Origin: a virus
Virus record (IMG/VR): IMGVR_UViG_3300017788_001924
Location: 1 to 21,627 of that record
DNA: 21,627 bases
Strand: one strand, 5' to 3'
Positions 1-18,000 of this stretch are shown here, piece after piece; position 1 is the stretch's first letter, and each line of letters starts with the position of its first letter. The translations under genes were made by a program, and so were the position numbers. The notes beneath the pieces were generated by a model. That model saw only the letters and a list, made by a program, of their open reading frames with translations, was not told the origin of the DNA and ran no database searches.

Positions 1-7
1 CAGAAGA

Positions 8-532: not shown

Positions 533-562
533 TCTAATCTAATAGGAGAAAAGTAAAATAAA

Positions 563-757
563 ATGAGCTTCATGCTTTTTGAAGTTTGGACTGAAGACGA
601 AGAAGGTCATCAGGAATTGATAGAAACTACTGCCAGTATGTCAGAAGCTGTAAAACTAGCAGAAACAGCAGTATTAGATGGTGCGTTTGCCGCAACTATT
701 TTTCAAGAAACCGAAGACGGAAACTCAAGAGAAATTGAGCGATTTGAAAGTGCTTGA
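563..757 (+). CDS. Small acidic hypothetical protein, 64 aa
   Basis: This is an uncharacterised, strongly acidic protein, predicted as a short beta strand (MLFEVWTED) followed by an amphipathic helix and a C-terminal acidic tail. It has no cysteines, membrane helix or recognisable motif. An AGGAG ribosome site at 544-548 lies 14 bases before the ATG at 563. That spacing is long, and a second in-frame ATG at 572 is possible but further away. The stop codon (755-757) sits inside the -35 hexamer of the promoter for the next gene, so transcription of that gene is set up at the exact end of this one. The layout (two small uncharacterised genes, then a promoter) is typical of phage accessory blocks. 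No function is proposed. Confidence 0.65.
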   Translation: MSFMLFEVWTEDEEGHQELIETTASMSEAVKLAETAVLDGAFAATIFQETEDGNSREIERFESA

Positions 758-782
758 CATTTAAAGTATTATGCAATATAAT
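754..782 (+). promoter_or_regulatory. Perfect sigma-70-type (early-type) promoter
   Basis: The sequence shows TTGACA at 754-759, a 17-base spacer, and TATAAT at 777-782: both hexamers and the spacing match the bacterial housekeeping consensus exactly. The predicted start of transcription is about 789, giving a leader of about 25 bases that contains an AGAGG ribosome site (802-806) before the ATG at 814. In T4-like phages such strong host-type promoters usually drive early genes. The -35 box overlaps the stop codon of the preceding gene. Confidence 0.85.
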
Positions 783-813
783 GTTTACTATTGCAACTCA
801 CAGAGGCTTAATT

Positions 814-1974: not shown

Positions 1975-1990
1975 TCTTTTAAAAATGGGC

Positions 1991-2022
1991 GGATAAATAC
2001 TCCAAATAAGGAGTGTTTATCC
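1991..2022 (+). promoter_or_regulatory. Leader hairpin masking the ribosome site, with an overlapping late promoter
   Basis: Two 13-base arms (1991-2003, GGATAAATACTCC; 2010-2022, GGAGTGTTTATCC) pair along their full length with a single G-U pair, around a six-base loop (AAATAA). The right arm abuts the ATG at 2023, and the stem buries most of the AAGGAG ribosome site (2008-2013). The left arm contains ATAAATA (1993-1999), the T4 late-promoter core. A late transcript would be expected to start near 2005, in the loop, and so lack the left arm. No T-run follows, so this is not a terminator. Confidence 0.72.
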
Positions 2023-4989
2023 ATGCCTGATCAGGGGCGAGTTGCTGTTGCTGATTCCTTCAGAAGAATCTTTCTCCAGCCAAATAGCGTAACTATTTCT
2101 GCAGATGACGTCGATGATCAATTAACGTTAGTCGCAGGAAACTTCATCGAATTTGTTGTTAACGAAGGCAACGATACCTTACAAATAAACGCCAATTCTA
2201 CGATTTCTGCTGCATTCGATGGTGGAAATGTTCAGTTCGTCACAAACTTTTTAAATACAGACGCATCTACTAATACCACTACAGGAGCTGTTAGAATCGT
2301 TGGCGGACTAGGAGTAGGCGGCGCGATCTATGCCAGCAGTATACAGGCCACTCCGATTGGATCGTCAACGAGGGCCTCGGGAGCATTCACATCGTTAGGG
2401 GCCACTGGTACAACCACACTAGAAGGTACTGTAAACATCAACGGTGCTGACGTAAGCACAACTATCAATCCTAGCGGAATCGGCACAGTAACTATAAACC
2501 CTGCTACTGCCGGTACCATTAATAACATGAGTATCGGTGCCACTACCAGAGCCGCCGGTAACTTTACTACACTAGATGCAAACAACACAACTACACTATC
2601 AGGTGCTGTTAACGCAACCGGTTCGAATGTTAATTTAACTCTTTCTCCTACAGGTACGGGAGTAGTTACTATACAACCAGCTGGTGGATTGACTATCAAT
2701 CCAACAACGACCGGTACTATTAATAATACCAGCATCGGAGCCAACACCAGAAGCACAGGTGCGTTTACTACTCTAACTGCAAATAATCTAACAACTGTAA
2801 CCGATAGCACTCAGAGTAGTTCAACATCAACAGGAGCATTAGTAGTTACCGGTGGAGTAGGGATCGGTGGAAATATATATGTTAACGGAACAACCAATCT
2901 CACAGGTGATATAACCGCAACTGGAGATCTAGCGGTAAACGGTGGGGATATCACCTCTACTGCTACAACTGTTAATTTAATAAACTTAAATGCAACAACT
3001 GTAAATTTTGCAGGAGCAGGAACTGCAATTACCATAGGTTCAACCAGTGGATACAGTGATATTAAAAATGAATTACGCCTAACTAAAAATACAGCAGCAT
3101 CGTCTACTTCTACAGGAACTTTAATTGTTACAGGCGGTGTTGGAATTAGCGGTAATGTTCATGCCGGAGGAACAGGAAATTTTGTTGGCATAACATCTAG
3201 TGGTACGGTTTCTCTAAGTCCTGCCAATGCTAATGTCACAGCAAGTCCAACAGGAACAGGTACAGTAACGATCAATCCTGCCACTGCTGGTACTATCAAT
3301 AATATGAGTATCGGTGCCAGTACCAGAAGTACCGGTGCATTTACAACTCTAGATGCTAATAACACCGTAACATTTACTGGTACAGTTTCATCTAATACAG
3401 GAACTAACAATCAGAGTTATACCACAACCGGCGCTGGTGTTATCACGATAACATCGGGCACTGTTGGATCTATGGATAACATAGCCGTTGGCACTTCTAC
3501 ACAGGCTGCTGGATCATTCACCACTTTAGCGGCTTCTGGAAACACAACTTTTAACGGTATCAATGCCACAGCAAGTTTACAGCCAACCGGAACAGGTACT
3601 GTAACTATTAATCCTGCTACTGCTGGTACTATCAATAATATGAGTATTGGCGCCAGTGCCAGAGGCAGTGGTGCATTCACAACTTTAGGCGCTGACAATG
3701 CCGTAAACTTAGATACAGGAACAAACAATCAAAGTTATACTACAACTGGTGCTGGTGTTATCACGATAGCATCTGGAACCAAAGGCACTATTAATAATCT
3801 AAGCATTGGTGAAACAACTGCCAGCACAGGAAGATTTACTACTGTCGAGTCGACAGCAACAACAGGAACTGCTCCGTTTATAGTTGCGTCAACAACTATG
3901 GTTTCTAATTTACAATCTCAAACAGCTAGTAAATTACACACAGCTAGATCAATAAGTTTAAGTGGATTTGTGAGCGGAAGTGCAAATTTTGACGGCAGCG
4001 AAAACATTTCGATATCTACAACCACAGGAACTCAGCTCGTTCTCGGAACAGCGACCTCTGGCCAATATGCATCAACTATTAACATTAGTGGCTCGGGGTT
4101 AAGTATTACAGCACCAAATGCCGATGACGGAACCGCCTATACAATAACTTCGTCAGCAACATCGAGCAACACCATCAACTCTATCGTATTTCGAGATGGT
4201 TCGGGAAATTTTTCAGCAGGGACAATCAGCGCGGCTATCAGTGCTTCTACAATTTCATCTAGTGGTACTGTTGATTTAAACCCTGCAAATGCAACGGTAT
4301 CTCTAAGCCCGTCAGGAACAGGCACAGTAACGATCAATCCTGCCACTGCTGGTACTATCAATAATATGAGTATCGGTGCTACTACTCGTAATACTGGTGC
4401 GTTTACCACATTAACTAGTAATGGAGCAACTACATTCACTGCTAATACAGCATCAACAAGCACAACATCGGGAACACTAGTAGTCACAGGTGGCATCGGA
4501 GTCAGCGGCAGTGTGAGATCATCATCGGCAGTTATTACCAATTTACGAGCAAGTAGTTCTTTCGAAGTTGGTCAAATAAGAACCACAACATCAACATTCC
4601 AGCAAATAAATACCGATACAACTAATGATATAGACTTGTCATTGGAATTTTTTGCTGGTCAAGATACACTACAATATATTAAAATATCTGTCCTAGGGTT
4701 ATATGTTAATGACATTTTTAGTCCCACAGCATGGGCAAGAATTAATAAGCATATAGTTTCTGGAATATGGTACAATGGTTCGGTATATCAATTAGATGGA
4801 GCCGTTGTCGAACATCAACCATTTAATTCGGATAGTACAAACTTTGCAGCAGGAACTACTCCGAGTGCAGGCAAAGTTCAACTGTTAATCGTATCTGGAT
4901 TTCCGACGTTGAGATTAATTAACAGAACCAGTCCTTCAATAAATTCTGTTACATATTGGACATATAAGATCGAGGTACAAAGATGGTAA
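2023..4989 (+). CDS. Repetitive tail-fibre-like structural protein, 988 aa
   Basis: This is probably a virion fibre or baseplate-associated protein. Composition is typical of a beta-structured fibre: Thr, Ser, Gly, Asn and Ala dominate, with almost no Cys. A non-repetitive head (about 1-80) starts with a short charged stretch. About seven copies of a module follow, with consensus GTVTINPATAGTINNMSIGA then TRxTGAFTTL, starting near residues 149, 219, 408, 468, 521, 574 and 762. They are interleaved with four copies of a second module, GTLVVTGGVGISGN-like, near 85, 266, 360 and 811. The last ~130 residues are non-repetitive, with aromatic and charged residues, and are the best candidate for a receptor-binding or capping domain. 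An AAGGAG site is nine bases upstream of the ATG but lies inside a strong hairpin that also overlaps a late promoter. The gene overlaps the next by seven bases. Confidence 0.85.
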   Translation: MPDQGRVAVADSFRRIFLQPNSVTISADDVDDQLTLVAGNFIEFVVNEGNDTLQINANSTISAAFDGGNVQFVTNFLNTDASTNTTTGAVRIVGGLGVGGAIYASSIQATPIGSSTRASGAFTSLGATGTTTLEGTVNINGADVSTTINPSGIGTVTINPATAGTINNMSIGATTRAAGNFTTLDANNTTTLSGAVNATGSNVNLTLSPTGTGVVTIQPAGGLTINPTTTGTINNTSIGANTRSTGAFTTLTANNLTTVTDSTQSSSTSTGALVVTGGVGIGGNIYVNGTTNLTGDITATGDLAVNGGDITSTATTVNLINLNATTVNFAGAGTAITIGSTSGYSDIKNELRLTKNTAASSTSTGTLIVTGGVGISGNVHAGGTGNFVGITSSGTVSLSPANANVTASPTGTGTVTINPATAGTINNMSIGASTRSTGAFTTLDANNTVTFTGTVSSNTGTNNQSYTTTGAGVITITSGTVGSMDNIAVGTSTQAAGSFTTLAASGNTTFNGINATASLQPTGTGTVTINPATAGTINNMSIGASARGSGAFTTLGADNAVNLDTGTNNQSYTTTGAGVITIASGTKGTINNLSIGETTASTGRFTTVESTATTGTAPFIVASTTMVSNLQSQTASKLHTARSISLSGFVSGSANFDGSENISISTTTGTQLVLGTATSGQYASTINISGSGLSITAPNADDGTAYTITSSATSSNTINSIVFRDGSGNFSAGTISAAISASTISSSGTVDLNPANATVSLSPSGTGTVTINPATAGTINNMSIGATTRNTGAFTTLTSNGATTFTANTASTSTTSGTLVVTGGIGVSGSVRSSSAVITNLRASSSFEVGQIRTTTSTFQQINTDTTNDIDLSLEFFAGQDTLQYIKISVLGLYVNDIFSPTAWARINKHIVSGIWYNGSVYQLDGAVVEHQPFNSDSTNFAAGTTPSAGKVQLLIVSGFPTLRLINRTSPSINSVTYWTYKIEVQRW
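2467..4440 (+). repeat. Degenerate coding repeats in the fibre gene
   Basis: The protein modules of the 988-aa fibre are visible at DNA level as diverged direct repeats, most with synonymous differences. Two copies are far more alike than the rest: 3262-3317 and 4324-4379 are identical over 56 bases although about 1 kb apart. A second pair (about 3408-3458 and 3726-3776) is also closely similar. Such islands of identity within otherwise diverged copies suggest recent recombination or gene conversion between modules. Confidence 0.8.
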
Positions 4990-5255
4990 ACAAAAATATT
5001 GATTTAACAATTAAAATTCGTACTAACATAAACGGGTTTGATCTCGAAATTAGAAAATTTCAAGATCGAATAAACATAATGGCTATAAATCCGATCAACG
5101 AGGGTCACAAAATATCTAAGTTCATTGAAATTGATCAAGAAAACATCACTGAAAATAATCTGTTAGATTTTGTATCAGAGAAGATAAATTTAAATGATTT
5201 TGTAGAAAGAGCCAGAAATATGTTCTCAGATCCCAACTCTATAATAACAGAGTAG
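4983..5255 (+). CDS. Small hypothetical protein in the fibre block, 90 aa
   Basis: This is a 90-residue protein of unknown function. It is Ile- and Asn-rich, with a predicted beta N-terminal half (residues 5-35) and a helical, acidic C-terminal half. There is no signal peptide, membrane segment, cysteine motif or repeat. The ATG lies inside the last codons of the 988-aa fibre gene (seven-base overlap, ATGGTAA), with a GAGG-type ribosome site just upstream, so it is probably translationally coupled to the fibre. Position between fibre genes suggests a small fibre chaperone, hinge or assembly protein, but the sequence alone does not show this. Confidence 0.72.
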   Translation: MVNKNIDLTIKIRTNINGFDLEIRKFQDRINIMAINPINEGHKISKFIEIDQENITENNLLDFVSEKINLNDFVERARNMFSDPNSIITE

Positions 5256-5265
5256 ATAACATCAG

Positions 5266-5272
5266 ATAAATA
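5266..5272 (+). promoter_or_regulatory. Candidate late promoter (ATAAATA) almost touching the next start codon
   Basis: ATAAATA at 5266-5272 matches the core of T4-type late promoters. With T4 geometry (last A at about -6), transcription would begin near 5278, two bases before the ATG at 5280. No ribosome site is visible upstream of that ATG. The site may therefore yield a nearly leaderless mRNA, or may be a chance match in AT-rich DNA. Confidence 0.45.
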
Positions 5273-5279
5273 GTTAATC

Positions 5280-6422
5280 ATGGTTAAAAATCCGATAGAT
5301 CAAGCATTAGAACAACTAAGTTCTGCAATTAAATCACAGAATTCGACCTCTATCGATATTACAGAATTTCTTAAATCATTACCTAAGAGAGCACTTTCGG
5401 GAGATCATATCTCTGGAGGAAAAATATTAAATTTTTCTAGCTCAGGCATCGTTGATCAATCTACAAAACAACAGATTCTGATCAAAGACGATTTAGTTAA
5501 AATTTCTACGTTAGAAATTGATACAATAAAAGATAATTTTAATGTCCAGGGAAAAATAAAATCTGAAAGCTTAGAAGTTAGTGGATTATTAAAAGCCGGA
5601 ATTCTAGAAGTTGACGAAATACGTGCAGATGTAAAATTGGAAAAACATAGTCCATTAGAATTTAAATCAAATAAAGAAGAATCGATCTACGGAAAAGGGT
5701 TATTATGGTCAGGAACCGGATCTACAAAACAATTAGTTTTAGTTGCTAATCCTGATAGATTTTTTGTATCTGAAAATATTGATCTGGCCAAAGACAAAAT
5801 AATATCTATTAATAATGTTATCGTCCTGAACGAAAAAGAAATTGGACCTAGCGTAACCAAGAGCAATTTAAAAGAGCTAGGAAGATTAAAAGGTTTAACT
5901 GTCGATGGCGACATAACCATTAATCAATATGCTTTTTATAATTCAGATTCTGATAGGCTAGGGCTTGGCACTGACGAACCTCACGGGGCATTAAGTGTTG
6001 CCGAAGACGGTATCGAAGTTATAATAGGCACCAGAGAAAATACAAGAGGATTGATCGGAACATATGCCAGTAACCCATTCGATATAATAACTGATTGTAA
6101 ACCTAGAATTAGTGTAGCAGCTAATGGCGATATAACATTAGGAAATCGAAATCAAAATCCTGTTCAAATTTCAATCCACGGTAAATTATCCGTAAGAGTT
6201 AATAATCCAGACCCCGAGGTCGATTTACATGTTAACGGACCGATAAGATATCATGGTCATATCCATATGTATAACTCTGTCTACCCATCATCAGGAGAAT
6301 ATTCCAAAGGAGACATAGTTTGGAACAATAATCCAAATGTAGGAATGTATGTTGGATGGATTTGTGTGGCTAGCGGAAATCCAGGACGATGGGCTGCATT
6401 TGGTCCTATAGTGAATATGTAA
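5280..6422 (+). CDS. Fibre-like structural protein, long paralogue, 380 aa
   Basis: A likely virion structural protein of the tail-fibre or baseplate type. Residues about 125-380 align closely, without large gaps, to almost the whole of the next gene's product. Shared blocks include GKGLLWSGTGSTKQL, TKSNLKELGRLKGLTVDG, DSDRLGLGT, a GTYAS segment and a C-terminal GDIVWN...GWICVASGNPGRW signature. Similar GDIVWN...GWVC ends occur at the C-termini of many phage fibre proteins, where they may bind or cap. The first ~124 residues are unique to this copy: a helical segment, then short beta repeats (for example NVQGKIKSESLEVSGLLKAG). There is no Shine-Dalgarno site before the ATG, only a late-promoter-like ATAAATA seven bases away. 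It is separated by one base from its paralogue. Confidence 0.82.
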   Translation: MVKNPIDQALEQLSSAIKSQNSTSIDITEFLKSLPKRALSGDHISGGKILNFSSSGIVDQSTKQQILIKDDLVKISTLEIDTIKDNFNVQGKIKSESLEVSGLLKAGILEVDEIRADVKLEKHSPLEFKSNKEESIYGKGLLWSGTGSTKQLVLVANPDRFFVSENIDLAKDKIISINNVIVLNEKEIGPSVTKSNLKELGRLKGLTVDGDITINQYAFYNSDSDRLGLGTDEPHGALSVAEDGIEVIIGTRENTRGLIGTYASNPFDIITDCKPRISVAANGDITLGNRNQNPVQISIHGKLSVRVNNPDPEVDLHVNGPIRYHGHIHMYNSVYPSSGEYSKGDIVWNNNPNVGMYVGWICVASGNPGRWAAFGPIVNM

Positions 6423-6423
6423 A

Positions 6424-7290
6424 ATGAATAATCAAGATCAAAAAATCAATGCTGTAATTAATGCGCTTAACGATCTATTTGAGAGCAGATCTGAAGAAAT
6501 TAACTTAACTGATATTCCTTTTTTAGAATTCAAATCTGGAAAAAACGGAACATTGGTTGGTAAAGGTTTATTATGGTCCGGACAGGGATCAGCAAAACAG
6601 TTGATATTTACATCAAATCCCGATAAATTTTATAGCTCCGAAGCCATTGATCTTGCTGCTGGAAAAAATCTTTCCATTAATAATGTTTTTGTTATAAATG
6701 AAAAGGAACTGGGACCTGGTATAACTAAAAGCAATTTAAAAGAACTCGGAAGATTAAAAGGATTAACAGTCGACGGATCTGTTAACATTAACCAATATTT
6801 ATTTTATGATGCTGATACCGATCGTTTAGGTTTAGGAACTGATACACCTAATTCCTCAATCAGTATACTCGAAAACGGAGTAGAAATAATTTTAGGAACC
6901 ACTGAATATAATAGAGGTTCTGTAGGAACCTACGCATCGAATGATTTCGATATAGTCACTGATAATACTCCCAGAATTTCTGTATCGGGGGGTGGAGATA
7001 TCGAACTTGGAAATAAAAATTTCGGACCAATAAAAGTTACCGTTAACGGTAAATTTGGTATAAATGTTTCTCAACCAGATCAGAGAGCAGATCTTCATGT
7101 GTCAGGCGCCATTAAATTCAACGATAAAATCCACCTAAGCGGGATAGAGCCACCGACCTTCGGAAATCATGTTCAAGGTGATATTGTTTGGAATTCAGCC
7201 CCCTCCACAAATAGTTACATAGGATGGGTCTGTGTACAATCTGGAAATCCGGGACAATGGCTTCCTTTTGGTCAGATACAGCCTAAGTAA
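6424..7290 (+). CDS. Fibre-like structural protein, short paralogue, 288 aa
   Basis: This is a tandem paralogue of the preceding 380-aa protein. From about residue 28 to the end it matches residues ~125-380 of that protein, including the GKGLLWSGQGSAKQL block, TKSNLKELGRLKGLTVDG, TDRLGLGT and the C-terminal GDIVWN...GWVCVQSGNPGQW signature. It lacks the ~100-residue N-terminal region of the longer copy, so the pair probably share a beta-rich fibre body and tip but attach differently. Two related copies side by side could form a heteromeric fibre or offer two receptor specificities (inference). The ATG follows the upstream stop by one base, with no clear ribosome site, so translational coupling is likely. 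Its stop overlaps the next start codon (TAATG). Confidence 0.82.
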   Translation: MNNQDQKINAVINALNDLFESRSEEINLTDIPFLEFKSGKNGTLVGKGLLWSGQGSAKQLIFTSNPDKFYSSEAIDLAAGKNLSINNVFVINEKELGPGITKSNLKELGRLKGLTVDGSVNINQYLFYDADTDRLGLGTDTPNSSISILENGVEIILGTTEYNRGSVGTYASNDFDIVTDNTPRISVSGGGDIELGNKNFGPIKVTVNGKFGINVSQPDQRADLHVSGAIKFNDKIHLSGIEPPTFGNHVQGDIVWNSAPSTNSYIGWVCVQSGNPGQWLPFGQIQPK

Positions 7291-7898
7291 TGAATTGTCT
7301 TGTTATCGGTAACGGCGAAAGTCGTAGAGATTTAAATTTTTCATCAGCTGATTTTGTTACATATGGATGTAATGCAATACATAGAGATTGTCATATTGAT
7401 CATCTTATCTGTGTCGATTCTAGGATGGTTGTAGAAGCTTTAGAAAATCCAAAAACCAATGACTCGATAATATATACAAGAAAAAATTGGATTGATCAAT
7501 TTAAAAATTTTAAAAATGTTAGATTAGTCCCGGAATTACCTTATCAAGGAAATCAACGACCAGACGACCCGTGGCATTGGGGAAGTGGTCCATATGCAAT
7601 TTTATTAGCCGCTATCGATCATCACGAAATAAACATCGCCGGAATGGATCTCTACGGACTCGATGGTAAAGTCAATAACATTTATAAAGATACCCCTAAC
7701 TATTCAAAATCAGAAAAACCCGAAGTAGATCCTAGCTATTGGATATACCAGATTGGTCGAGTGTTTGAATGCTATCCAGATAGGCAATTTCGAATTTTCA
7801 ACAACGACGATTGGAATTTACCGAGAGAATGGAATTTATCAAATGTTACCAAAGAAAATTTATACGATCTTGCAAGGTCTATAAATATTCCTGTATAA
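7290..7898 (+). CDS. Rossmann-like sugar-transferase-type protein, 202 aa
   Basis: This resembles the fold group around DUF115/MptE-like proteins and GT42-type sialyltransferases; I treat that as a tentative placement. The N-terminus gives a beta strand and glycine turn (CLVIGNGESR, residues 3-12). Then come YGCNAIHRDC (25-34), a VDSRMV segment with Asp43, a HWGSGPYAI block (96-104), and IAGMDLYG (116-123) followed by an Asn- and Tyr-containing VNNIYKDTPNY. That order (glycine-rich entry, SGPYA helix, GxDLxG loop, N...Y) is what suggests a nucleotide-sugar enzyme. There is no membrane segment. It starts inside the stop of the upstream fibre gene (TAATG), and a second glycosyltransferase lies 0.85 kb downstream. 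Possible roles are modifying fibre proteins or host surface glycans. Confidence 0.6.
   Translation: MNCLVIGNGESRRDLNFSSADFVTYGCNAIHRDCHIDHLICVDSRMVVEALENPKTNDSIIYTRKNWIDQFKNFKNVRLVPELPYQGNQRPDDPWHWGSGPYAILLAAIDHHEINIAGMDLYGLDGKVNNIYKDTPNYSKSEKPEVDPSYWIYQIGRVFECYPDRQFRIFNNDDWNLPREWNLSNVTKENLYDLARSINIPV
7880..7887 (+). promoter_or_regulatory. Candidate late promoter TATAAATA upstream of the QueD-like gene
   Basis: An exact TATAAATA (the T4 late consensus) lies at 7880-7887, inside the last codons of the preceding gene. Predicted transcription starts near 7893, giving a leader of about 93 bases to the ATG at 7986. A TATAAT at 7894-7899 with a poor TTGCAA 18 bases upstream offers an alternative sigma-70 reading. 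The 87-base gap 7899-7985 otherwise holds only the AGGAG ribosome site (7974-7978). Confidence 0.4.
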
Positions 7899-7985
7899 TT
7901 ACAACAAGCGGTCTCTTAAGGCATTCACCCCGCTATATAAATTCTGCATGTCATCAAACTTGCTCATTTATAAAGGAGACTAGAG

Positions 7986-8552
7986 ATGGCAAATTTTCTT
8001 TCAACAAAAACTTATGGCAATGACAGAGGTCTTTCATGTTGTTTCCGTCAATGGCGTAGCACTCACAGTCATTGCAGCCTACTTCATGGCTATAGCATTG
8101 GCATTCGTCTTGTATTTGAGTCTGATACCCTTGATAGTCGTAATTGGGTTATGGACTTCGGTGGACTGAAAGCTTTCCAGCAATGGGCAGAATGGCAGTT
8201 CGACCACACGTTAGTCATTGCTGAAGATGACCCTTATCTACCATTTTTTAAACAAATGAGTAATTTAGGTGATCCCCCAACATCCGGTACCGGTACTGTT
8301 GATAAAATCAAACCTCACGAGAGAAGAGCTATATGCGATCTTCGTATCGTAGAAGCAGTCGGCTGTGAAAAATTTGCCGAATTAGCGTATCGCACAATGA
8401 ACGAAATACTGATAGCCTACCAAAAGGGTCAAAATTGGACACATCCAGACGGTCGTGTTTTTGAAGCACGTTATTCTGTAGGACAAGGTGTTAAATTAAA
8501 ATCCGCAGAAGTATTCGAACATGAAGGTAATTCTGCGATCTACGAAGGATGA
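7986..8552 (+). CDS. QueD/6-pyruvoyl-tetrahydropterin synthase-family protein, 188 aa
   Basis: This is a member of the PTPS/QueD (6-carboxytetrahydropterin synthase) family, which converts dihydroneopterin triphosphate to a pterin used in queuosine and other 7-deazaguanine pathways. Family landmarks are visible in order: LSCCFRQW at the N-terminus, THSHCSLLHGYS (residues 26-37, with catalytic-type Cys30 and His34), VMDFGGLK (55-62), FDHTL (72-76, Asp73 and His74) and a late Glu in AEVFEHEGNS. At 188 aa it is longer than bacterial QueD (about 120 aa), with an insertion at about 80-110 and a longer C-terminus. The usual HGH zinc motif is HGY here, so one canonical zinc-ligand His is replaced. 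An AGGAG site sits seven bases before the ATG. No folE, queC or queE is in the window. Confidence is good for the family, low for the exact substrate. Confidence 0.8.
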   Translation: MANFLSTKTYGNDRGLSCCFRQWRSTHSHCSLLHGYSIGIRLVFESDTLDSRNWVMDFGGLKAFQQWAEWQFDHTLVIAEDDPYLPFFKQMSNLGDPPTSGTGTVDKIKPHERRAICDLRIVEAVGCEKFAELAYRTMNEILIAYQKGQNWTHPDGRVFEARYSVGQGVKLKSAEVFEHEGNSAIYEG

Positions 8553-8740
8553 ACAGTCTAGAAAAGATATGGGCCAGGGCTACCGGGCACTTGATGGGGC
8601 AAACGGACAACGATCGTCCGGATGTTCCCATCCTTACTGTTCGTGAAGCTCGAATAGCATTGTTCCTAAAAACTTTCTGGGTGGCCATACATGTCGTTAC
8701 CTGCTTCTTCATCATCGCTAATGTAATCAGGCACTGGTAA
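8549..8740 (+). CDS. Small single-helix membrane protein, 63 aa
   Basis: An uncharacterised small membrane protein. Residues 1-38 are polar and mixed-charge (SLEKIWARATGHLMGQ, then a short acidic and Pro-rich stretch). Residues 39-60 (FLKTFWVAIHVVTCFFIIAN) form one strong hydrophobic helix, and the chain ends in RHW. The likely topology is cytoplasmic N-terminus with a C-terminal anchor. The ATG overlaps the QueD-like stop (ATGA), so translation is probably coupled; the AAGGA at 8544-8548 is too close to act as a normal ribosome site for this start. The stop overlaps the following start (TAATG). Size and topology would fit a lysis accessory or envelope protein, but there is no direct evidence for either. 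Confidence 0.7.
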   Translation: MNSLEKIWARATGHLMGQTDNDRPDVPILTVREARIALFLKTFWVAIHVVTCFFIIANVIRHW

Positions 8741-9438
8741 TGATAAACGTTATTTGTCTTAAACACGGATCTAAGTATGGTGTCGAATATGTAAACATAC
8801 TCTATAATATGATATCTCGACACCTCACCTTACCTTATAGATTCGTATGCTTTACAGACAATCCAAAAAATCTTAATGAAAAAATTGATATTAGAATCCT
8901 TCCTCGAATAGATAACATACAAGGATGGTGGTGGAAACCTTATATTTTTCGAAAAGGTAATTTTGATCACAAGGATATTAATTTATTTTTTGATCTCGAT
9001 ATGGTTATAATCAATAACATAAATCATTTTATAGATTACAAGCCGGGAAAATTTGTTGGATTAGAAGATGTAGGTAGGGTATGGGGTAATCGCCCCCCTA
9101 AGCTAGGAAGTGCTGTTTTAAGATGGCAGGGTGACGAATATCATAAGATTTGGGAAGGTATAGAACTCGATCCTACAACAACTAGAAGATTCCATGGAGA
9201 TCAAGATTATATCTGGAGTATCTGCAGATACGAGATAGAATTTTTTCCCTCAGATTGGATTAAAAGTTATAAATGGGAAGTTAGGAGTCAATCAGAACTA
9301 GTCCGACATTCCGGAGGATTTACATTTAAAAATATATCTAATCCAGTAGTTTCTGAATCAACCTCAGTGCTGGCATTTCACGGAACTCCGAATCCTCACG
9401 AAGTACAAGATCCGATTATAGTTGACAACTGGCGTTAA
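8740..9438 (+). CDS. Glycosyltransferase, GT-A type with DxD motif, 232 aa
   Basis: Probably a nucleotide-sugar-dependent glycosyltransferase of the GT-A fold. The order of motifs is characteristic: an N-terminal strand (INVICLKHGSKYG), a VCFTDNP segment (35-42), QGWWWKPYIF (61-70), the metal-binding FFDLDMVI with Asp85 and Asp87, a later HGDQDYIW (152-159), and a closing AFHGTPNPHEV (212-222). The late His-Gly and DQDY blocks are typical of enzymes that set the acceptor and catalytic site. There is no signal peptide or membrane anchor, so it acts in the cytoplasm. At 232 aa it is a compact single-domain enzyme. It starts in the stop codon of the membrane protein (TAATG). The acceptor is unknown: fibre protein, phage DNA or host glycan are all possible. 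Its 3' end contains the promoter of the next gene. Confidence 0.78.
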   Translation: MINVICLKHGSKYGVEYVNILYNMISRHLTLPYRFVCFTDNPKNLNEKIDIRILPRIDNIQGWWWKPYIFRKGNFDHKDINLFFDLDMVIINNINHFIDYKPGKFVGLEDVGRVWGNRPPKLGSAVLRWQGDEYHKIWEGIELDPTTTRRFHGDQDYIWSICRYEIEFFPSDWIKSYKWEVRSQSELVRHSGGFTFKNISNPVVSESTSVLAFHGTPNPHEVQDPIIVDNWR

Positions 9439-9450
9439 ATGTCATATAAT
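9422..9450 (+). promoter_or_regulatory. Perfect sigma-70-type promoter of the UV endonuclease gene
   Basis: TTGACA (9422-9427), 17 bases, then TATAAT (9445-9450): an exact match to the housekeeping consensus, partly within the 3' end of the glycosyltransferase gene. With -10 at the usual place, transcription would start at about 9457, which is the A of an in-frame ATG. This predicts a leaderless uvsE mRNA and early, host-polymerase-driven expression in the middle of a block of probable late genes. Confidence 0.82.
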
Positions 9451-9456
9451 GATACT

Positions 9457-10479
9457 ATGACTAAACGTATCGGTTTTGCTTGCAAATGGATCGACCGTCC
9501 TGATCAGGTAGACGGTATCAAACCTAAAGACGACTGTAAAAAATACAATACAGGATCTACCACTGTCGCTTGGTTAAATAGACAAACCAAGGAGGTGGCT
9601 GTAGAGAAGCTCTGGTCTCTAATGGAACAGAATATCGAATCGTGCCGCCTGCTTGTAGAACGAGTAGGGAGTTTAGATGAAGATCTTAGAATGGTACGAC
9701 TTAGCAGTGATATACTGCCTGTATACACTGAGCCGACTTGGGGCTGGTTTTGGCGGCTTCCTGATGTCAGAGAATACTGTGCTCGAGGATTTTCGAGAGT
9801 GGGTGACTTGGCCCGTGAGAATCGGGTTCGCCTTAGTTTTCATCCCGGTCAGTTTACTGTGCTTGCAAGTGATAATCCGGATATTGTCAGTCGCAGTATA
9901 GAGGAATTTGAATATCATGTGGACATGGCTCGTTGGATGGGTTACGGACAAACGTTCCAAGATTTCAAGATCAATGTCCACATCGCAGGTCGACTGGGAC
10001 CAGATGGCATACGTGCTGCGCTGGCTAGGATGACACCTGAAGCTAGGAATACACTTACTATCGAAAACGATGAGATGACTTGGGGCATCGAGGACAGCCT
10101 TGAATTAGTTAACGACTGTGCCCTGGTGTTAGACATACATCATCATTGGGTTAAGACCGGGGAATATATCGACGCGAATGACGATCGTATTAAAAAAATC
10201 ATCGATAGTTGGAGAGGTGCTCGTCGTCCTGTCGTCCATTATAGCGTTAGTCGTGAAGATTTACTCGTCAGTCATTGTACTGTCACTCGCCCAGATATGC
10301 AATCTTTATTAGCACAAGGTTACAAAAAAACCAAGCTTCGTGCCCACAGTGATTTTATGTGGAATTCTGCTGTTAACGATTGGGCATTAACTCATTCCGA
10401 ATGGGCCGACATGATGATAGAAAGCAAAGCTAAAAATCTTGCTAGTAGAGCACTTTACGAATATAAACAAAAATCATAA
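9457..10479 (+). CDS. uvsE: UV damage endonuclease (UvdE/UvsE family), 340 aa
   Basis: This is a UV damage endonuclease: a metal-dependent TIM-barrel enzyme that nicks DNA 5' of pyrimidine dimers and other lesions, starting excision repair. Family blocks are clear: IGFACKWI near the N-terminus, RLSFHPGQFTVLAS (His129), INVHIAG (His175), TIENDE (Glu203), LDIHHHW (Asp226, His228/229) and PVVHYSVSRED (His261), matching the metal-ligand positions expected. In the Thermus enzyme a modified Lys lies two residues before the last His; here that position is Val259. I chose the ATG at 9457 because the ATG at 9439 lies between the -35 and -10 boxes of the gene's own promoter and adds six non-family residues. 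A stop-to-terminator gap of one base follows. The gene looks less AT-rich than the neighbouring glycosyltransferase, which may point to separate acquisition. Confidence 0.92.
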   Translation: MTKRIGFACKWIDRPDQVDGIKPKDDCKKYNTGSTTVAWLNRQTKEVAVEKLWSLMEQNIESCRLLVERVGSLDEDLRMVRLSSDILPVYTEPTWGWFWRLPDVREYCARGFSRVGDLARENRVRLSFHPGQFTVLASDNPDIVSRSIEEFEYHVDMARWMGYGQTFQDFKINVHIAGRLGPDGIRAALARMTPEARNTLTIENDEMTWGIEDSLELVNDCALVLDIHHHWVKTGEYIDANDDRIKKIIDSWRGARRPVVHYSVSREDLLVSHCTVTRPDMQSLLAQGYKKTKLRAHSDFMWNSAVNDWALTHSEWADMMIESKAKNLASRALYEYKQKS

Positions 10480-10504
10480 AAAAGCCCTCCGAAGAGGGCT
10501 TTTT
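10480..10504 (+). terminator. Bidirectional intrinsic terminator
   Basis: The stem GCCCTC (10484-10489) pairs with GAGGGC (10494-10499) across a CGAA loop, and the flanking A-run (10478-10483) can extend it by pairing with the T-run (10500-10504). Read on the plus strand it terminates uvsE. Read on the minus strand the A-run becomes a U-run, so it can also stop the convergent EF-hand gene ending at 10519. Confidence 0.88.
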
Positions 10505-10518
10505 CATATACCAATTAA

Positions 10519-10833
10519 TTACTTGGTTTTTGGTTTTCGGCCACGATTGGAACCGGTAGCCTTTTTAACAGCAGCTTTGGCTTTTGATGCATTTTTTACT
10601 ACTCCGGCGACAGCCTTTTCTTTAACTTGCTTTGCATCTTTAATATCGACTTTACCGTCCTTGTTAACATCGGCAGTGGCTTTAACACCCTCTACTGTAT
10701 TTTGGACAGCTGCCTTAGCATCTGCGGCATCTACTTTGCCGTCATTGTTAATATCAAGACTCTTAGCACTTCTGTTGAAGTAAAATAAAGCCCCAACTAC
10801 AACTACGGCCGCGATTGCTAATAAGATTTCCAT
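10519..10833 (-). CDS. Membrane-anchored two EF-hand (dockerin-like) protein, 104 aa
   Basis: A small calcium-binding-type membrane protein of unknown role. Residues 3-19 are a single hydrophobic helix (an uncleaved anchor or signal-anchor). Two 12-residue EF-hand loops follow: DINNDGKVDAAD (27-38, ligands D27, N29, D31, D35, D38) and DVNKDGKVDIKD (55-66, ligands D55, N57, D59, D63, D66). Each is followed by an Ala-rich helix, as in dockerin or Excalibur-like repeats. The tail (80-104) is very basic, Lys- and Ala-rich, ending KPKTK. The AAGGAG ribosome site is eight bases before the start (complement of 10842-10847). A GTAAATAA sequence just upstream on the same strand may be a late promoter. 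It is convergent with uvsE across a shared terminator and divergent from iscU. A virion or periplasmic role is possible. Confidence 0.82.
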   Translation of the reverse strand: MEILLAIAAVVVVGALFYFNRSAKSLDINNDGKVDAADAKAAVQNTVEGVKATADVNKDGKVDIKDAKQVKEKAVAGVVKNASKAKAAVKKATGSNRGRKPKTK

Positions 10834-10900
10834 AATTTAATCTCCTTGTGGTTTATTTACACTAAATATTCAGTACATAATTATTTTCTGGATATAAATC
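10834..10900. promoter_or_regulatory. Divergent 67-base promoter region, EF-hand gene / iscU
   Basis: On the minus strand GTAAATAA (complement of 10853-10860) would place a late start near 10848, just before the AAGGAG site of the EF-hand gene. On the plus strand CTAAATA (10862-10868) is a weak late-core match with a predicted start near 10874. TATAAATC (10893-10900) abuts the iscU ATG and is too close to drive it. The iscU ribosome site is poor (TGGA, 10889-10892). No sigma-70 consensus is present. Confidence 0.4.
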
Positions 10901-11296
10901 ATGGCTTACAGCGATAAAGTTATTGATCATTACGAAAATCCTCGTAATGTTGGCAGCTTTGACAAAAACGACACTAGCGTAGGAACAGGAATGGTTGGAG
11001 CACCGGCCTGCGGTGACGTGATGAAGTTACAGATAAAGGTAGACGAAAATGGCATTATATCCGATGCACGTTTTAAGACGTATGGATGTGGTTCAGCGAT
11101 CGCGAGCAGTTCGCTGGTTACGGAGTGGGTCAAAGGCAAAACTCTCGATCAAGCTGCTACTATCCGGAACACAGAAATTGCCAGCGAGCTTGCGCTCCCG
11201 CCTGTCAAGATCCACTGCTCTATCCTCGCGGAAGACGCGATCAAAGCAGCCATAGAAGATTATAAGAAAAAACATGATTCCCAGCCCGTGCAATAA
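10901..11296 (+). CDS. iscU: Fe-S cluster assembly scaffold IscU, 131 aa
   Basis: This is the scaffold on which Fe-S clusters are built from desulfurase-derived sulfur and iron, then released to carriers. All key features are intact: PACGD with Cys37 and Asp39, YGCGSAIASS with Cys63, and the HscA-binding LPPVK (99-103) followed by His105 and Cys106. Length (131 aa) and motif spacing match bacterial IscU (about 128 aa), so it is the single-domain Isc-type scaffold rather than SufU or a NifU fusion. No iscS, hscB, hscA or fdx is in the window, so the protein would have to use the host desulfurase and chaperones; the preserved LPPVK supports that. It appears less AT-rich than the structural genes. 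Its last 23 bases overlap a hidden DUF1289 gene, starting an iscU-DUF1289-iscA operon. The ribosome site is weak (TGGA). Confidence 0.95.
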   Translation: MAYSDKVIDHYENPRNVGSFDKNDTSVGTGMVGAPACGDVMKLQIKVDENGIISDARFKTYGCGSAIASSSLVTEWVKGKTLDQAATIRNTEIASELALPPVKIHCSILAEDAIKAAIEDYKKKHDSQPVQ

Positions 11297-11450
11297 AATA
11301 TGCAAGTTGGATTCTAATAATATCTGTATTGGCTGTAAACGTACTATAAACGAAATCACTCAATGGAGTATGTTTTCTGATGAAGGCAAACTTACTGTTT
11401 TAGAGAGAATAAATGATCAACATGACCGAGTTAGCAGCACAGAAAGTTAA
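11274..11450 (+). CDS. Hidden DUF1289-family four-cysteine protein, 58 aa
   Basis: A short gene in a different frame from both neighbours, overlapping the end of iscU by 23 bases and the start of iscA by 38. The protein begins MIPSPCNKIC and continues with NICIGCKRTINEITQWSMFS, then SDEGK and a helix. This is the signature of DUF1289: C-x3-C, C-x2-C (Cys6, 10, 18, 21), the GCxRTxxEIxxW core and a following D/E-rich helix. Family members are small proteobacterial proteins whose cysteines are thought to bind metal or an Fe-S cluster; the function is not established. The N-terminal SPC matches the family start, supporting the ATG at 11274. The ribosome site is weak (AAGAAA), so coupling to iscU translation is likely. 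Its location between scaffold and carrier genes suggests a role in cluster assembly or transfer. Confidence 0.85.
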   Translation: MIPSPCNKICKLDSNNICIGCKRTINEITQWSMFSDEGKLTVLERINDQHDRVSSTES

Positions 11451-11742
11451 AGAATTTTTATCTAAAAGAGGGAAAGGCCTGGGTATTAAAATCGGAGTAA
11501 AAACTACCGGTTGCTCGGGATTAGCCTATGTTTTAGAATATGTTGACATAGAGCAAGGAAAAGAACACTGTATGGAACACTACGAAGTTAATGGTGTTCA
11601 AATTTATATAGATCCCAAACATAGACCCTATCTCTACGGAATGACTATGGATTGGATTAAAAAAGGTCTTAATGAAGGATTTGATTTTATTAACCCAAAT
11701 GAACGAGATCGCTGTGGCTGCGGAGAAAGTTTTCGAGTCTAA
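11413..11742 (+). CDS. iscA: A-type Fe-S carrier protein IscA (HesB family), 109 aa
   Basis: An A-type carrier that accepts Fe-S clusters or iron from the scaffold and delivers them to apo-proteins. The three invariant cysteines are present: Cys34 in TTGCSGLAY, and Cys101 and Cys103 in the C-terminal CGCGESF. Length is as in E. coli IscA (107 aa). The IscA, SufA and ErpA subgroups are hard to tell apart from sequence alone; the partnership with iscU favours IscA. I chose the ATG at 11413 (GAGAG at 11403-11407, five bases away) over the ATG at 11422, which is 14 bases from it. The coding sequence is more AT-rich than iscU next to it, so the two may have been gathered separately. The stop codon overlaps the convergent zinc-ribbon gene by four bases, and transcription probably ends at a terminator inside that gene. 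Confidence 0.93.
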   Translation: MINMTELAAQKVKEFLSKRGKGLGIKIGVKTTGCSGLAYVLEYVDIEQGKEHCMEHYEVNGVQIYIDPKHRPYLYGMTMDWIKKGLNEGFDFINPNERDRCGCGESFRV

Positions 11743-12026
11743 TATTTTCCTACAGGTAGTTCTACACTAGCTGGCATATCCCAAATCTTCTTTCGCTCAA
11801 CTCCTTTACGTTGAGCGAATTTTTTTGTGTCACAGTTGCTACAACAATGAAAATAGTTGTTACTCAACCGCTTAGTTTGTATATGCTTTAAATCTCTTTC
11901 AAACGTCTCACCACAATTATCGCAGAGAAAAAATGCTATAGTCTTTTTTCGTTCGTATTCGTGAACAGTACCCAATTTACTGGATCGCCGATAGGTTACT
12001 GTTACAATTTCACTTTTAATGTACAT
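11739..12026 (-). CDS. Zinc-ribbon-type phage protein, 95 aa
   Basis: An uncharacterised protein with a four-cysteine metal site: CDNC (Cys35, Cys38) and HCCSNC (Cys61/62, Cys65), about 23 residues apart, as in a zinc ribbon. The N-terminal 30 residues are beta-like and basic (KSEIVTVTYRR). The C-terminal region after the cysteines is highly charged (KKFAQRKGVERKKIWDMPAS) and may contact nucleic acid. Resemblance to small hypothetical proteins of T4-like phages is from memory. The frame extends upstream to 12104, but that start lies inside the next gene and reads through its promoter region, so I chose the ATG at 12026. There is no ribosome site; a TAAATA sequence on this strand predicts transcription starting exactly at the ATG. 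Its coding DNA contains the antisense terminator of the iron-sulfur operon. Confidence 0.75.
   Translation of the reverse strand: MYIKSEIVTVTYRRSSKLGTVHEYERKKTIAFFLCDNCGETFERDLKHIQTKRLSNNYFHCCSNCDTKKFAQRKGVERKKIWDMPASVELPVGKY
11792..11826 (+). terminator. Intrinsic terminator of the iscU operon, embedded in an opposing gene
   Basis: A perfect 10-bp stem (TTCGCTCAAC at 11792-11801 with GTTGAGCGAA at 11810-11819), an eight-base loop and seven Ts (11820-11826) form a strong rho-independent terminator for plus-strand transcription leaving iscA. On the minus strand the hairpin is not followed by a U-run, so the zinc-ribbon gene can be read through it. The arms encode part of FAQRKGVERK in that protein. 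Confidence 0.88.
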
Positions 12027-12097
12027 ATTGTTATTTACATTAGGCTTGTAAAAATTTTGAATAAATACCAAAGTAGACAAATTTTCTGAGGTATAAC
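12027..12097. promoter_or_regulatory. Divergent 71-base region with late promoters both ways
   Basis: On the plus strand ATAAATA (12061-12067) gives a predicted late start near 12073 and a 25-base leader with a GAGG ribosome site (12088-12091) six bases before the ATG at 12098. On the minus strand GTAAATAA (complement of 12031-12038) predicts a start at about 12026, the A of the zinc-ribbon ATG. A weak ATACC/GGTAT pairing (12065-12069 with 12090-12094) could partly mask the plus-strand ribosome site in read-through RNA. Confidence 0.55.
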
Positions 12098-15000
12098 ATG
12101 GCAAGAAAAGTTATTGATGTTGGTCTATCCAACAATGACGGTACTGGCGATAGTATTCGTGACTCGTTCAAAAAAGTAAATGATAATTTTCAAGAATTGT
12201 ACGGATCTCTCGGGTTAGGAGAAAGATTATCATTTAGAGGGCTAGAAGATACTCCCGGATCGTATCTAAACCAACAAGGAAAATTATTAGTTGTTAATCA
12301 AACACAGGATGGATTAGAGTTTAGGAGTCTCCTTGCAGGAACTTCTATGGCTATTGATTATGATAATGTTACCGGATCTATTACACTACGACCGTTAAAT
12401 CAAGATGTTGTAAACGATACCACTCCTCAGTTGGGCGGAAATCTTGACGCAAGATCTGGAGGTGTTAACTATAAGATTTTCAATTTACCTGCACCTAGCG
12501 GTCCCACAGATGCTGTAAACAAATCCTATGCCGATACTAAAATTTCTTTATCCGGTGTTGATGCTGTGGATCCAGAAACTGGTCTAACCAACGAAGCATT
12601 TGGTACAATGACTGGTCCGTTGGTTCTTTCAAGAAATCCAGTTACTGCAGACGACGACGATTATGATGGACTCATCGCTGCTACTAAAAGATATGTAGAT
12701 AGATCTAGTTTTTCTAGTACTACATCCTTATACGTAAATCTCGGAGGTAGCGATAATCGTACAGATCTTTCTGAAGATAAGCAAGGAAGATCTCCGGCAT
12801 ATGCGTTTAGAACATTAGAAAAAGCATTAAAAGAATGCGAAAGAATTATTGCTGAAAGCCCTTTTGAGCTTAGTGTATATAAGAAGAAATTAGTTTATAA
12901 TAACGGACTCCCCTGTACTTTAACTAAAATAGAAACAGCATTAATAGAAGATCCGTTGAATCTGGGATCGTTCATCCAAGCAGGAAGCGGAGCAGTTATT
13001 ATTCCTAGGATGCTGATAGAAAGTTTTACCCTGAGAAATCCCGGTACTGGGTATAAAGCAGGTGATGTTATACAGATAGGGTTACCATCAAATCCTGGAA
13101 CATTTACCAGCAGAGCCAGTGTCAAAGTTTTGAGAGTAAGTAATGTAAACGGTGCGATTTTAACTTACGAAATCGTCGGAAGAGGAAATTATACCGGTCT
13201 TCCCGGAGTATTAGATGTCGGATCTACTTTATCTGTACCCGTTGCCGGATCGGTAGGTGCCGGTGCAACATTTGATTTAACTTACAGCGTAGCAGAATTA
13301 TCAGTGACTGGCCAGGGATCAGGTTATGGTCCAGTGAGTATCAGAATATCAGCCGGCGGTGGCGAGGGTGCAGCGGCAACAGCGATCGTATCAAATGGTT
13401 CTATAATCGGAACGACTCTCCTTTCAGGTGGAGGTGGTTATACATCCCTACCAACAGTTCAAGTATTTTTACCTAGATTGTTTGTTTTTACCAATGGAGC
13501 CAGAACAGATTTTTCATCATCATTAGATCCGCTAGCACAAGATATAAGAGAAGGTCTTGGCATACGAGGAATAACATCAGGAGCAATAGCAGAAATTCTA
13601 TCGCACAATGCTTCCCTAGACGATACGTTATCTGGTTATCCTACTGGTACAGGTAAAAACGAATTATTTGATGTAGGTGTGTTAAGCGGTTGGTTCATCG
13701 ACGGTGAAGAACTCGAATACGGCGAATTAATTAAAACAAAACAAATAACAGTACAAGTAGAGTCTGGATCGTTCGAAGAAAACTACCCGTTGAGAGTTTC
13801 AAATAACGTTTCTATTATCGGAGAAGAATTTAGGCGAACACTGATCCGTCCTAAGCCAGGTATCAGTACTAGTCCTTACACACAGATCTTTTTTAGAAGA
13901 GATCCTATTATCGATAACATACGGGTAACAGGTCTATACGGAATTAATTTAGCAACTAATACCACTGCAGCTTTAAGTGCCAGAACCGGAACCATCACAG
14001 TTACCTTAGGTTCTCCGGGAACCAACACGAATTGGATTGGAAAAATATGGAAGTGTATTCCCACCAGAGGCGAGGGAGTAGTCACTCAAATTTTAAGTTC
14101 TACACAATTTAAAGTTAGAATACATGATGATTTAGATAGCACAGCAACTATAGCTCAAGGAGCTATATTTGTAGGAACTATTAGTAGCACAACACTAACA
14201 GTCGAGTCTGTTACCTCTGGAACTATCACCGTTGGTATGGAAATAAATGCAATCGGAGCTACTACCATACCGATCGGAATAAAAATAGAAGAACAGCTCA
14301 CCGGGGCGATCGGAGGAACAGGAACTTATAGACTTAACAAAGGTTATAAACTTCCAAACTCAACTTCTATTTTTGGATCAAACTGGCAGATTTATACTGT
14401 AAATGAATACGGATTTCATTATCTAACTGATCCTAGCAGACCTATATATCCTCTGTTAGAAAACATCGGAAGAAACGTTAATGCTGCAACTCTATTAAAA
14501 TTAAACAAATTATTCATCCAAGAAGAAGTTATTGCATATGTTAATAGAACCTATGCAGCAACAGGTTACAATGAAGAATTATGTAAAAGAGATATCGGTC
14601 TGATAATCGATGCCATAGTCTATGATCTAATATATGGAGGTTATACTCGATCAGTCGAGGCGGCCTTAAAATATTATCAAAGTGTTAGCGGATTAATCGC
14701 CATAGGACTAACCGGAACTCCAGAATCTGGATTTTTAGATATAATTTCAAATTCTCAAAAATCAGCTACATTAGGTGCTATCTCATTCGCTGCCACATTA
14801 GCTGATCAAACTGTAAGAAATAATTCTTTAGAAAAATTTAATATCAATCCAGAAGCTGTACAGATAATTAATTTTTCATTAACGAGAGAACCTCTGGCAA
14901 CTGGAATCATAGCTGCATTAATGAATACCATCTATCAAATGCTAGATGATCCGAGAAATGTCAACTTCCCTAAAGATAACAGAGAAATGGATGTATTCTT

Positions 15001-18000
15001 GTGTAACGACGCTAACATCTTACGTCAGATTACCATACAAGGACATGGCGGATTCGCGCAGGTTCTAGATCCAGAAGGTCAAATTTTAAACAAATCACCA
15101 TATTCACAGCAAGGTTCTGTATTCTCGGCAAGTAATAATAAACAAAGATTTGCAGGAGGTATGTTCATTGACGGATATACCGGTAATCAATATTTTAGAA
15201 TTAGAAGTAAAACAACATCTGGTCCAGAAGCCAATTATGTATTTGAAATTGATAAACTATACAGAAGACCACAACTTCCATGTACTTTCGTTGTACAAGG
15301 TATAGTTTATAAAGTTAACTATTTAAGAAACTTTGTTTATAGTTCGGGACCAAATGGTTCAAGTGCTACACTAGTATTGGACAGCTCAAGTCCTTATCCC
15401 GATGCGATTGCTGGAATTATTACAGGATGCACTGCAACTGGCAACGGAACTCATGCTACTATTACCTTTCCGTCAGTCCGGGGATTTGCCCCTTTTACAG
15501 TAGGAAATCAAATCGACGTCAGCGGTTTTGGTGGAGATGCTGCTGGGTATAACGGAATACATCGAGTAACTGAATGTACTACTACGTTTGTTAGATTTGT
15601 TAGTGGTGAAACTGATCCAGGTACTGGCGGCACGGTTGCAGAAAATTTTGAATTAATCACGGCTGGATACAGAAGCCTGTTAAGTAATGACTGGACACAA
15701 CTTAACGATATGGGATATGGTCTTTTTGTAACCAACGGAGGTATTTCAGAAGCAGTAGGTATGTTTACCTACTATTGCTACACCGCTTATTTTTCCTTAA
15801 ACGGGGGACAGATTCGTTCTGTGGGAGGATCTGCTGCACACGGCGTTTACGCACTAAGAGCAGAAGGATCAGATCCAAAAGAAATCCCTGATGACTGTTT
15901 TATTAGTAGAGATTTTATTCAAAGTGTAAAAACATATGCTATCGGCCAATACGGAAACGCCAGGGGTGATAATGAATTATACATCACCAATTATAATTAC
16001 GAACCGTTAGCCGACAGTCAACTAGAAGTACTACACTATAGAACCTCAACAGCTAGAGACGGTATAGCAATCACAGGAATGACCCAAAGTGGAACAAAAA
16101 CTGTATTAACTGTCGCCGGTGCTAACTCACATTTTCAATCTAAAGATCATATACAGATAACAGGTATCGTTTCATCCAGCCAATTTTCAACATTATTTAA
16201 TTACCAAAGAAATGTATCAGATTCTTTTAGCGGTGTTTTTAGAATCGATGCTGTTGACGCCACAACGATAACTATTGATTTTCCGTCAACAGGTGCTTCT
16301 GGATTTGCCGGTATTACAGTTACTGGCGGTTCTTGGACTGATGGAACAGCTACATTAACTTTTGCTAATCAGACATTCAATCCTTATGTAGTCGGTCAAA
16401 AATTCATAATCAGTGGGGTAGCACCTGCCGGGTACAATAACAGTGGGACCGCTGTAACTTTAACCGCGGTAACACCTACAAGTATTTCATATGCGCTGGC
16501 AAGTAATCCAGGAGCATGGGTCAGTGGCGGTGCATTGCCTGCAATGGTTAGAGCAACAGGCGTCAGAAGAGATTATGCTATCAATAGTATTTTCTACGGA
16601 GACGGATCTAGTGGAGGGGGGATCCCAGACCAGGTGGCTAGAGTATTTTTAGAACCAATTACTACCAATCCCGGAGAAACTGGTCTCTATGCCGCAATAG
16701 GTAATAATGATCCGGTGACTATTAGGCAATCAAGAAAACTATGGTTAGACGGAGTATCTGGAACATCGGTTGCAAAAGCATCGACAGCATTATTATTCGA
16801 TGACGACGATCCGGATTTTGACGTAAATGATGTTATCACATATTCAACAGGAGATTTGGCCAGAAGAACTGGCGGATACCAAGAAGCATTCGCTAATTTA
16901 AGAGAAAGTTACAGATACATTCAAATTACTGCTAAATTTTCACAAAGAAAGGTAGGTAATCTGTACTACGGAGCCGTAGGAAGTTCCAATATCAGTGTCA
17001 ATACCATTACTGATCAATTCGATATAGCCAAATTAGCAACTGGTAATTATTCTTTCCATTGGTATGGCGTTGAATATATCACAACAGGATATACTCCAGC
17101 GGCGGGGCCAGATGCTGCATACATTACATTAGATAAACCTCTACAACATCCTATATCCGGCTATCAAAGTGAAACGACTTTACAGGTTGGTCCAAAATAC
17201 GGAGTAACCGGATCAATCACTATAAAGATATCAACATTAAGAGCCACTGCGTTTGACTTGTTAGATATCGGTTCGGGAAGTTATGCAGATACTAATTATC
17301 CAAATAACATTTTTGGTCCATCTGTAAACGCCAACAAGCCCGATAATGAAGCTGCCGAAATAGGAAAAGGTCGTGTATTTTATACGACTATCGACCAAGA
17401 AGGAAACTTTAAGGTCGGTAAACTGTTTGGAATTAACCAATCAACCGGTGAAGCTACACTTAGTGCTAGAATTTCATTAAGTAATATTTCATCCTTACAA
17501 TTAAGTCAAGGTGTTCCAATTAACGAATTTACCGCAGATCCTAATTTTTCAAGTCCCAGCGGAACATCAGTAGCGACAGAATTGGCTACGAAATTATATA
17601 TCGATAGAAGATTAGGTCACGACGGTTCTGATAAACTAAATTCCGATCGAATAGGTCCAGGATTTATCGATACTACCGGTAAAAATTTCATGGTTGATAA
17701 TTTCAACATGAACAATGCTGGTAGAATCATCAACATGAAGAATCCAACCGCGTTAGACGATGCTGTTACATATAGATGGTTGAGTCTTCCGCATTTAAAC
17801 GGAAATAATGGTTCTGTGACTATTCCGAACTGCACAGTTTCTGGAAATGGAACCACTGCAACTGTAACCTTTGGAGGAACACCTATATTTGCTTCTGCTC
17901 CGTTTGTTGCAGGTCAGATAATAGGAATTACTGGTTTTACAAATTCCGGATTTAATACTAACAAAGCCACTGTGATAACCTGTAATACAACCACATTGAC

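Follow-up and report, generated by a model that had tools for sequence, protein, structure and literature searches.

The window, meaning the whole stretch of viral DNA analysed here (21,627 nucleotides, IMG/VR record IMGVR_UViG_3300017788_001924), carries a gene for a UV damage endonuclease, uvsE, on its plus strand at 9457-10479. An earlier sequence-only reading had named the enzyme, and profile comparison bears this out: the 340-aa product, assigned to PHROG 8420, matches the Pfam family UvdE (PF03851) with an E-value of 1e-38 and 133.6 bits against a cut-off of 24, over profile positions 16-253 of 275. It resembles the solved UV endonucleases 2j6v and 3bzj, and its HPGQ, ENDE..W and D.HH blocks align with a solved enzyme of this kind, at the level of blocks and not of residue-by-residue ligands. 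No unusual feature was found in the protein itself.

Upstream of uvsE lies a glycosyltransferase-like gene (8740-9438, plus strand, PHROG 1962). Behind uvsE is a terminator-like hairpin, AAAAAGCCCTC-CGAA-GAGGGCTTTTT (10479-10504, plus strand, also listed on the minus strand); similar hairpins occur in just 14 of 84 relatives, and a conserved terminator at this place was rejected. A small convergent ORF (10519-10833, minus strand) contains repeated DxNxDGKxD-like stretches that by eye resemble dockerin or EF-hand loops. Of a nearby pair of genes, the first (10901-11296) is the IscU/NifU-type scaffold gene (5.5e-55) and the second, which adjoins it (11413-11742), encodes an A-type Fe-S carrier (8.1e-16). 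Compared with cultured phages at the nucleotide level, the window gave no megablast match, and blastn returned short pieces of the IscU, PTPS and UvsE genes only. The major capsid protein Gp23 (PF07068) was found in two (G006 and G013) of seven contigs searched, which are relatives of the window and mostly fragments, and by this marker the group, made up of uncultured water phages, is classed as T4-like.

Further upstream, a conserved leader element (7907-7955) is situated between a TATAAT promoter and the Shine-Dalgarno (SD) sequence of a PTPS/QueD gene (7986-8552). Four covarying versions of its stem (AGAGG/CCUCU, AGCGG/CCGCU, AGUGG/CCACU and UGCGG/CCGCA) account for all 33 elements kept from 43 pattern matches after 10 judged to be inside genes had been dropped. 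The loop pairs with downstream bases (GGCAU/AUGCC, GACGC/GUGUC, GACUU/AAGUC), and when tails were swapped among the 21 distinct elements, 2 of 2000 permutations reached the observed pairing. In form the element resembles an H-type pseudoknot riboswitch, whose ligand may be preQ1; Rfam 15, searched with 7895-7990 at E<=10, returned one unrelated weak match on the other strand.

A consensus promoter 6 nt before the uvsE start codon

The -35 hexamer TTGACA (9422-9427) falls within the last codons of the upstream gene, which encode V-D-N-W-R-stop (GTT-GAC-AAC-TGG-CGT-TAA). After a spacer of 17 nt come the -10 hexamer TATAAT (9445-9450), the discriminator GATACT (9451-9456), whose final base places a pyrimidine at -1, and the uvsE start codon ATG (9457-9459), the A of which is the predicted +1 of the mRNA. 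Promoters were scored against the sigma70 consensus hexamers TTGACA and TATAAT. With the -35 and -10 at consensus and separated by a distance within the 16-18 nt range, the site scores 12 of 12, confirming the perfect promoter read earlier, and its end lies 6 nt 5' of the in-frame ATG 9457, a geometry that would put +1 on the start codon. The second in-frame ATG described by the sequence-only reading (9439-9441) does sit between the two hexamers, directly after the TAA at 9436-9438, and is judged unused. A scan of the 15 nt ahead of ATG 9457 found no SD motif (AGGA, GGAG, GAGG or AAGG). The promoter region has no match in Rfam, and folding of 9457-9516, a test for low structure at the mRNA 5' end, gave an ordinary value (z 0.48).

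Perfect 12/12 sites number two in positions 1-20000 (starting at 754 and 9422), and a scan of the whole record returned the same two. A first-order Markov control of the window predicts 0.035 perfect sites per window over both strands, and 2 of 1500 resamplings contained at least two. Looser matches of at least 9/12 are not enriched in the window (52 observed vs 60.7 expected from shuffles) and, being at background level, carry no meaning. The other perfect promoter (754-782, plus strand) is leadered, with 31 nt between its -10 and ATG 814 and a GAGG preceding that ATG. Since the phage group also possesses such leadered consensus promoters, leaderlessness cannot be predicted from a perfect promoter by itself; as far as the sequences tell, it is the spacing from -10 to ATG, not promoter perfection, that does. 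The evidence from a single site is modest, and comparison with relatives therefore had to decide.

Conservation among uvsE loci

Searching viral contigs with the UvsE protein retrieved 80 loci, 81 with the window. The promoter stands directly before uvsE in 50 of these, in 27 it precedes the leading ORF of a short operon upstream, and four have it in neither position. Wherever it occurs in this set, the leaderless ATG comes 5-6 nt past the -10. More divergent UvsE proteins, used in two additional scans, returned 160 loci, of which 83 on the same contigs were dropped by a hand-made list and 77 kept. The resulting 158 loci were reduced to 103 distinct ones by scripted removal of near-identical sequences, where distinct denotes more than 3 differences per ~100 nt and not independence by descent; p-values computed on such loci overstate their independence, because the loci are related.

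A promoter followed by an ATG 5-6 nt past its -10 is present at 85 of the 103 distinct loci (47 directly before uvsE, 34 before an operon and four before a mini-ORF), the offset being 6 nt in 77 and 5 nt in eight. The same layout occurs in 34 of the 46 distinct loci that were fetched once the rule was known. Where uvsE is not the first gene, the leaderless ATG is the start of the operon's first ORF (the 34 operon loci), and these leader genes encode unrelated small proteins, for example a WYL_2-like one (Pfam, 8.4e-14). The predicted leaderless uvsE mRNA is thus strongly supported by comparison. Among the 18 loci that depart from the rule, five have too little upstream DNA, L356 and L377 have a consensus promoter with a gap of 28 or 41 nt, and others are without such a promoter; three of the 18, L037, L043 and L045, do show the layout at a lower score or farther upstream. 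Of the loci compared that carry the promoter directly before uvsE, just the window, L046 and L077 have an upstream in-frame ATG of the 9439 type; this alternative start is not conserved in the sequences compared, and comparison strongly supports 9457, the start chosen originally.

No sigma70-leaderless match was found in five cultured phages (T4, NCTB, Erwinia Y3, Aeromonas phiAS5 and Dickeya AD1), among which phiAS5 alone has consensus promoters, none of the eight leaderless; in seven group contigs the figure is 24 of 65, with some sites shared between G012 and G013. The uvsE genes of four cultured phages have SD sequences or overlapping, coupled starts. At 64 bacterial uvsE loci, mostly from Enterobacterales with GGAG-type SD sequences, no such promoter was found at the start. 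It follows from these SD-led and coupled starts that the leaderless layout does not come with the enzyme family.

The predicted transcription start and its alternatives

The base preceding the ATG is T or C in all 85 distinct leaderless promoters, and a pyrimidine at this position occurs in only 9 of 47 uvsE starts lacking a leaderless promoter of their own. A pyrimidine at -1 and an A at +1 form the usual sigma70 initiator. In the SD-leadered promoters of the same phages, such a pair is favoured at positions 6/7 past the -10 (20 of 30), and the leaderless ones carry the A of their ATG at precisely this place. These observations bear on the most serious alternative, in which the promoter is real and transcription begins a few bases upstream (for example at 9452 or 9454), leaving a leader of 3-5 nt. 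The 5-nt spacing in 8 of the 85 promoters does betray some slack in the start position, but the invariant pyrimidine and the A at +7, the initiator site that leadered promoters favour, speak against this arrangement and make it improbable. A leader of 3-5 nt is in any case too short for an SD sequence, and translation would therefore still be leaderless in kind.

The start codon moves with the promoter. It is retained despite differing upstream genes and despite longer UvsE N-termini: N-extended proteins begin at the promoter-proximal ATG in L003, L050, L065, L066, L068, L070, L074, L078 and L079. At four loci (L053, L064, L080 and L482) the promoter-proximal ATG at +5/+6 begins a mini-ORF of 9-10 codons that ends within the first codons of uvsE, its stop overlapping the start of this downstream gene; here we infer leaderless entry followed by translational coupling into uvsE. 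The second codon is ACT in 35 of 47 leaderless uvsE genes vs 6 of 47 others, and unrelated operon leaders with a leaderless start begin with ATGACT as well (10 of 17 distinct), so that these opening codons go with the leaderless start more closely than with the family of the protein. As a separate observation, the first gene of the uvsE operon at L045, nucleotidyltransferase-like by eye, starts MTKRIGF, the first residues of leaderless UvsE, as though the promoter had been transferred along with the codons that follow it.

It could also be argued that the -35 is a by-product of the V-D-N-W codons ending the upstream gene, and that uvsE is expressed by readthrough, with translation coupled at TAAATG (9436-9441) and starting at ATG 9439. 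A VDNW-type end is shared by 27 of 37 distinct direct loci, and in the window the TAA abuts ATG 9439. Yet the other 10 loci lack this end and retain the promoter with its spacing, the -35 still reading TTGAC[A/T], which argues that the promoter is kept independently of the upstream coding sequence and upholds the proposal that uvsE has a host-type promoter of its own. The D codon that forms part of the -35 is GAC, although the upstream gene otherwise prefers GAT (3 GAC to 13 GAT), a protein end accounts for neither the -10 nor the exact spacing, and a start of the 9439 type is confined to the three loci named above. This explanation is accordingly very unlikely; readthrough from upstream could nevertheless supply an additional, leadered uvsE transcript. 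A functionless chance match to the consensus is extremely unlikely, for although loose promoter-like sites do occur in the window at background frequency, a perfect promoter with an ATG at 5-6 nt is expected 0.0013 times per window under the Markov control, and the layout is conserved in 85 of 103 distinct relatives.

The reading we prefer, with a probability of about 0.87, is host sigma70 initiation at A9457 to give a leaderless uvsE mRNA that starts with AUG. Host sigma70 RNA polymerase would bind 9422-9450 without any phage factor and begin transcription at A9457, so that the message opens with AUG and has no SD leader. By analogy with known leaderless mRNAs, the 5'-terminal AUG would be taken by an undissociated 70S ribosome with fMet-tRNA, and the 340-aa endonuclease would be made independently of the phage late programme. 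The arrangement may bring several gains: the promoter can be accommodated where another gene ends, in a gap of zero length, uvsE expression is separated from the late programme, and leaderless translation may survive in stressed hosts. The type of promoter would fit early expression of uvsE, and the enzyme family a possible benefit under sunlight.

Predicted leaderless starts across the phage group

In five relatives (788,382 bases), promoters scoring at least 11/12 were related to the nearest ATG opening an ORF of at least 50 aa. Among 107 such promoters the ATG lies at +5 to +7 in 23 and at +20 to +37 in 35; it is elsewhere within 60 nt in seven, and there is none in 42. AGGAG is frequent among the listed leadered promoters. 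Two promoter outputs can thus be read from the sequences of this group, a predicted leaderless one (+5 to +7) and an SD-leadered one (mostly +20 to +37). An exact pattern search of 26 contigs gave 47 leaderless matches vs none for the reversed pattern. When 20 distinct matches were read, 16 opened ORFs of 68-284 aa and four opened ORFs of 4-35 aa. The 16 include genes for IF-1, an Rv2179c-like exonuclease, a calcineurin-like phosphoesterase, an epimerase and WYL_2, together with a QueE-like gene (by eye, with a weak radical-SAM match).

Late promoters may behave in the same way. T4-type late octamers NATAAATA are strand-biased in relatives, with GATAAATA at 37:5 vs 72:72 for the scrambled TATTAATA, and GATAAATA-type octamers precede genes neighbouring uvsE in the window, which lends some support to the late block that had been proposed around it. 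Late-type matches number 40 in the seven group contigs vs five in the five cultured controls, sets of similar total length and unmatched base composition. In five related contigs (L231-L270) the distance from octamer to ATG peaks at exactly +5 (17 of 94 on the plus strand), and 16 of these 17 have a pyrimidine at -1, as counted by eye. With the geometry of T4 late promoters, an ATG at +5 would again put +1 on its A, which suggests leaderless late mRNAs. The group appears to use leaderless starts beside SD-leadered ones, at host-type and probably also at late promoters.

Initiation factor IF-1 (PF01176) is encoded in 10 of 26 related contigs (L207, L217, L499-L508). In the five contigs where its position was resolved, the gene is directly behind a leaderless promoter in G006 and G007, second behind a small leaderless gene in G001 and G015, and leadered in G020. 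This distribution is compatible with a bias toward leaderless initiation made by the phage but does not demonstrate one. It is a speculative, rather doubtful extension that the phages run a second translation channel, in which leaderless mRNAs come from host-type and late promoters and phage IF-1, itself leaderless-made, shifts host ribosomes in favour of initiation at a 5'-AUG, either during infection or in hosts that are stressed and UV-damaged.

A phage mRNA starting at AUG is made from PRM, a host sigma70 promoter, for the lambda cI gene. The likeness lies in a leaderless phage mRNA from a host sigma70 promoter; cI, however, is one regulated gene, for the repressor of a temperate phage, whereas here a DNA-repair gene and other genes of T4-like phages are involved, with conservation over dozens of contigs. 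With the UvdE/UvsE family (PF03851; 2j6v, 3bzj) the enzyme is shared, and what is new is the mRNA start.

In Deinococcus-Thermus, leaderless genes are described as having a -10 motif TANNNT ~6-7 bp before the ORF and no RBS (PMC12340547). As portrayed there, the -10 adjoining the ORF, the missing RBS and leaderlessness as a regular mode recur here, but that is a cellular phylum with TANNNT, whereas these are phages with full TTGACA-N17-TATAAT and a parallel SD-leadered class. Huge phages are reported to encode the translation factors IF1 and IF3 (PMC7162821), as the present relatives do IF-1; the term 'leaderless' is absent from the main text of that paper, and a difference is that four contigs here have IF-1 at or second behind a leaderless promoter. 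According to a review, translation of leaderless mRNAs begins mostly via 70S binding; IF1 and IF2 stimulate it, high IF3 is inhibitory, and a 5' phosphate and (p)ppGpp favour it (PMC9031893). Phage transcripts have been called 'often leaderless' in a text that nonetheless gives UTRs of 26-491 nt for AR9 (PMC5312081). No prior description of a conserved leaderless uvsE promoter in phages was found in the open-access literature searched: leaderless translation is known, and its conserved, group-wide use by phages appears to be new.

Leaderless mRNA is commonly regarded as a curiosity, except in a few lineages of bacteria and archaea. Starts such as 9457 are open to mis-calling by gene callers that score SD sites. 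A zero-leader cassette kept over large divergence, alongside an SD-leadered class, supplies naturally paired cases in which to ask what is gained by a leaderless start, and the link between leaderless starts and phage IF-1 becomes testable.
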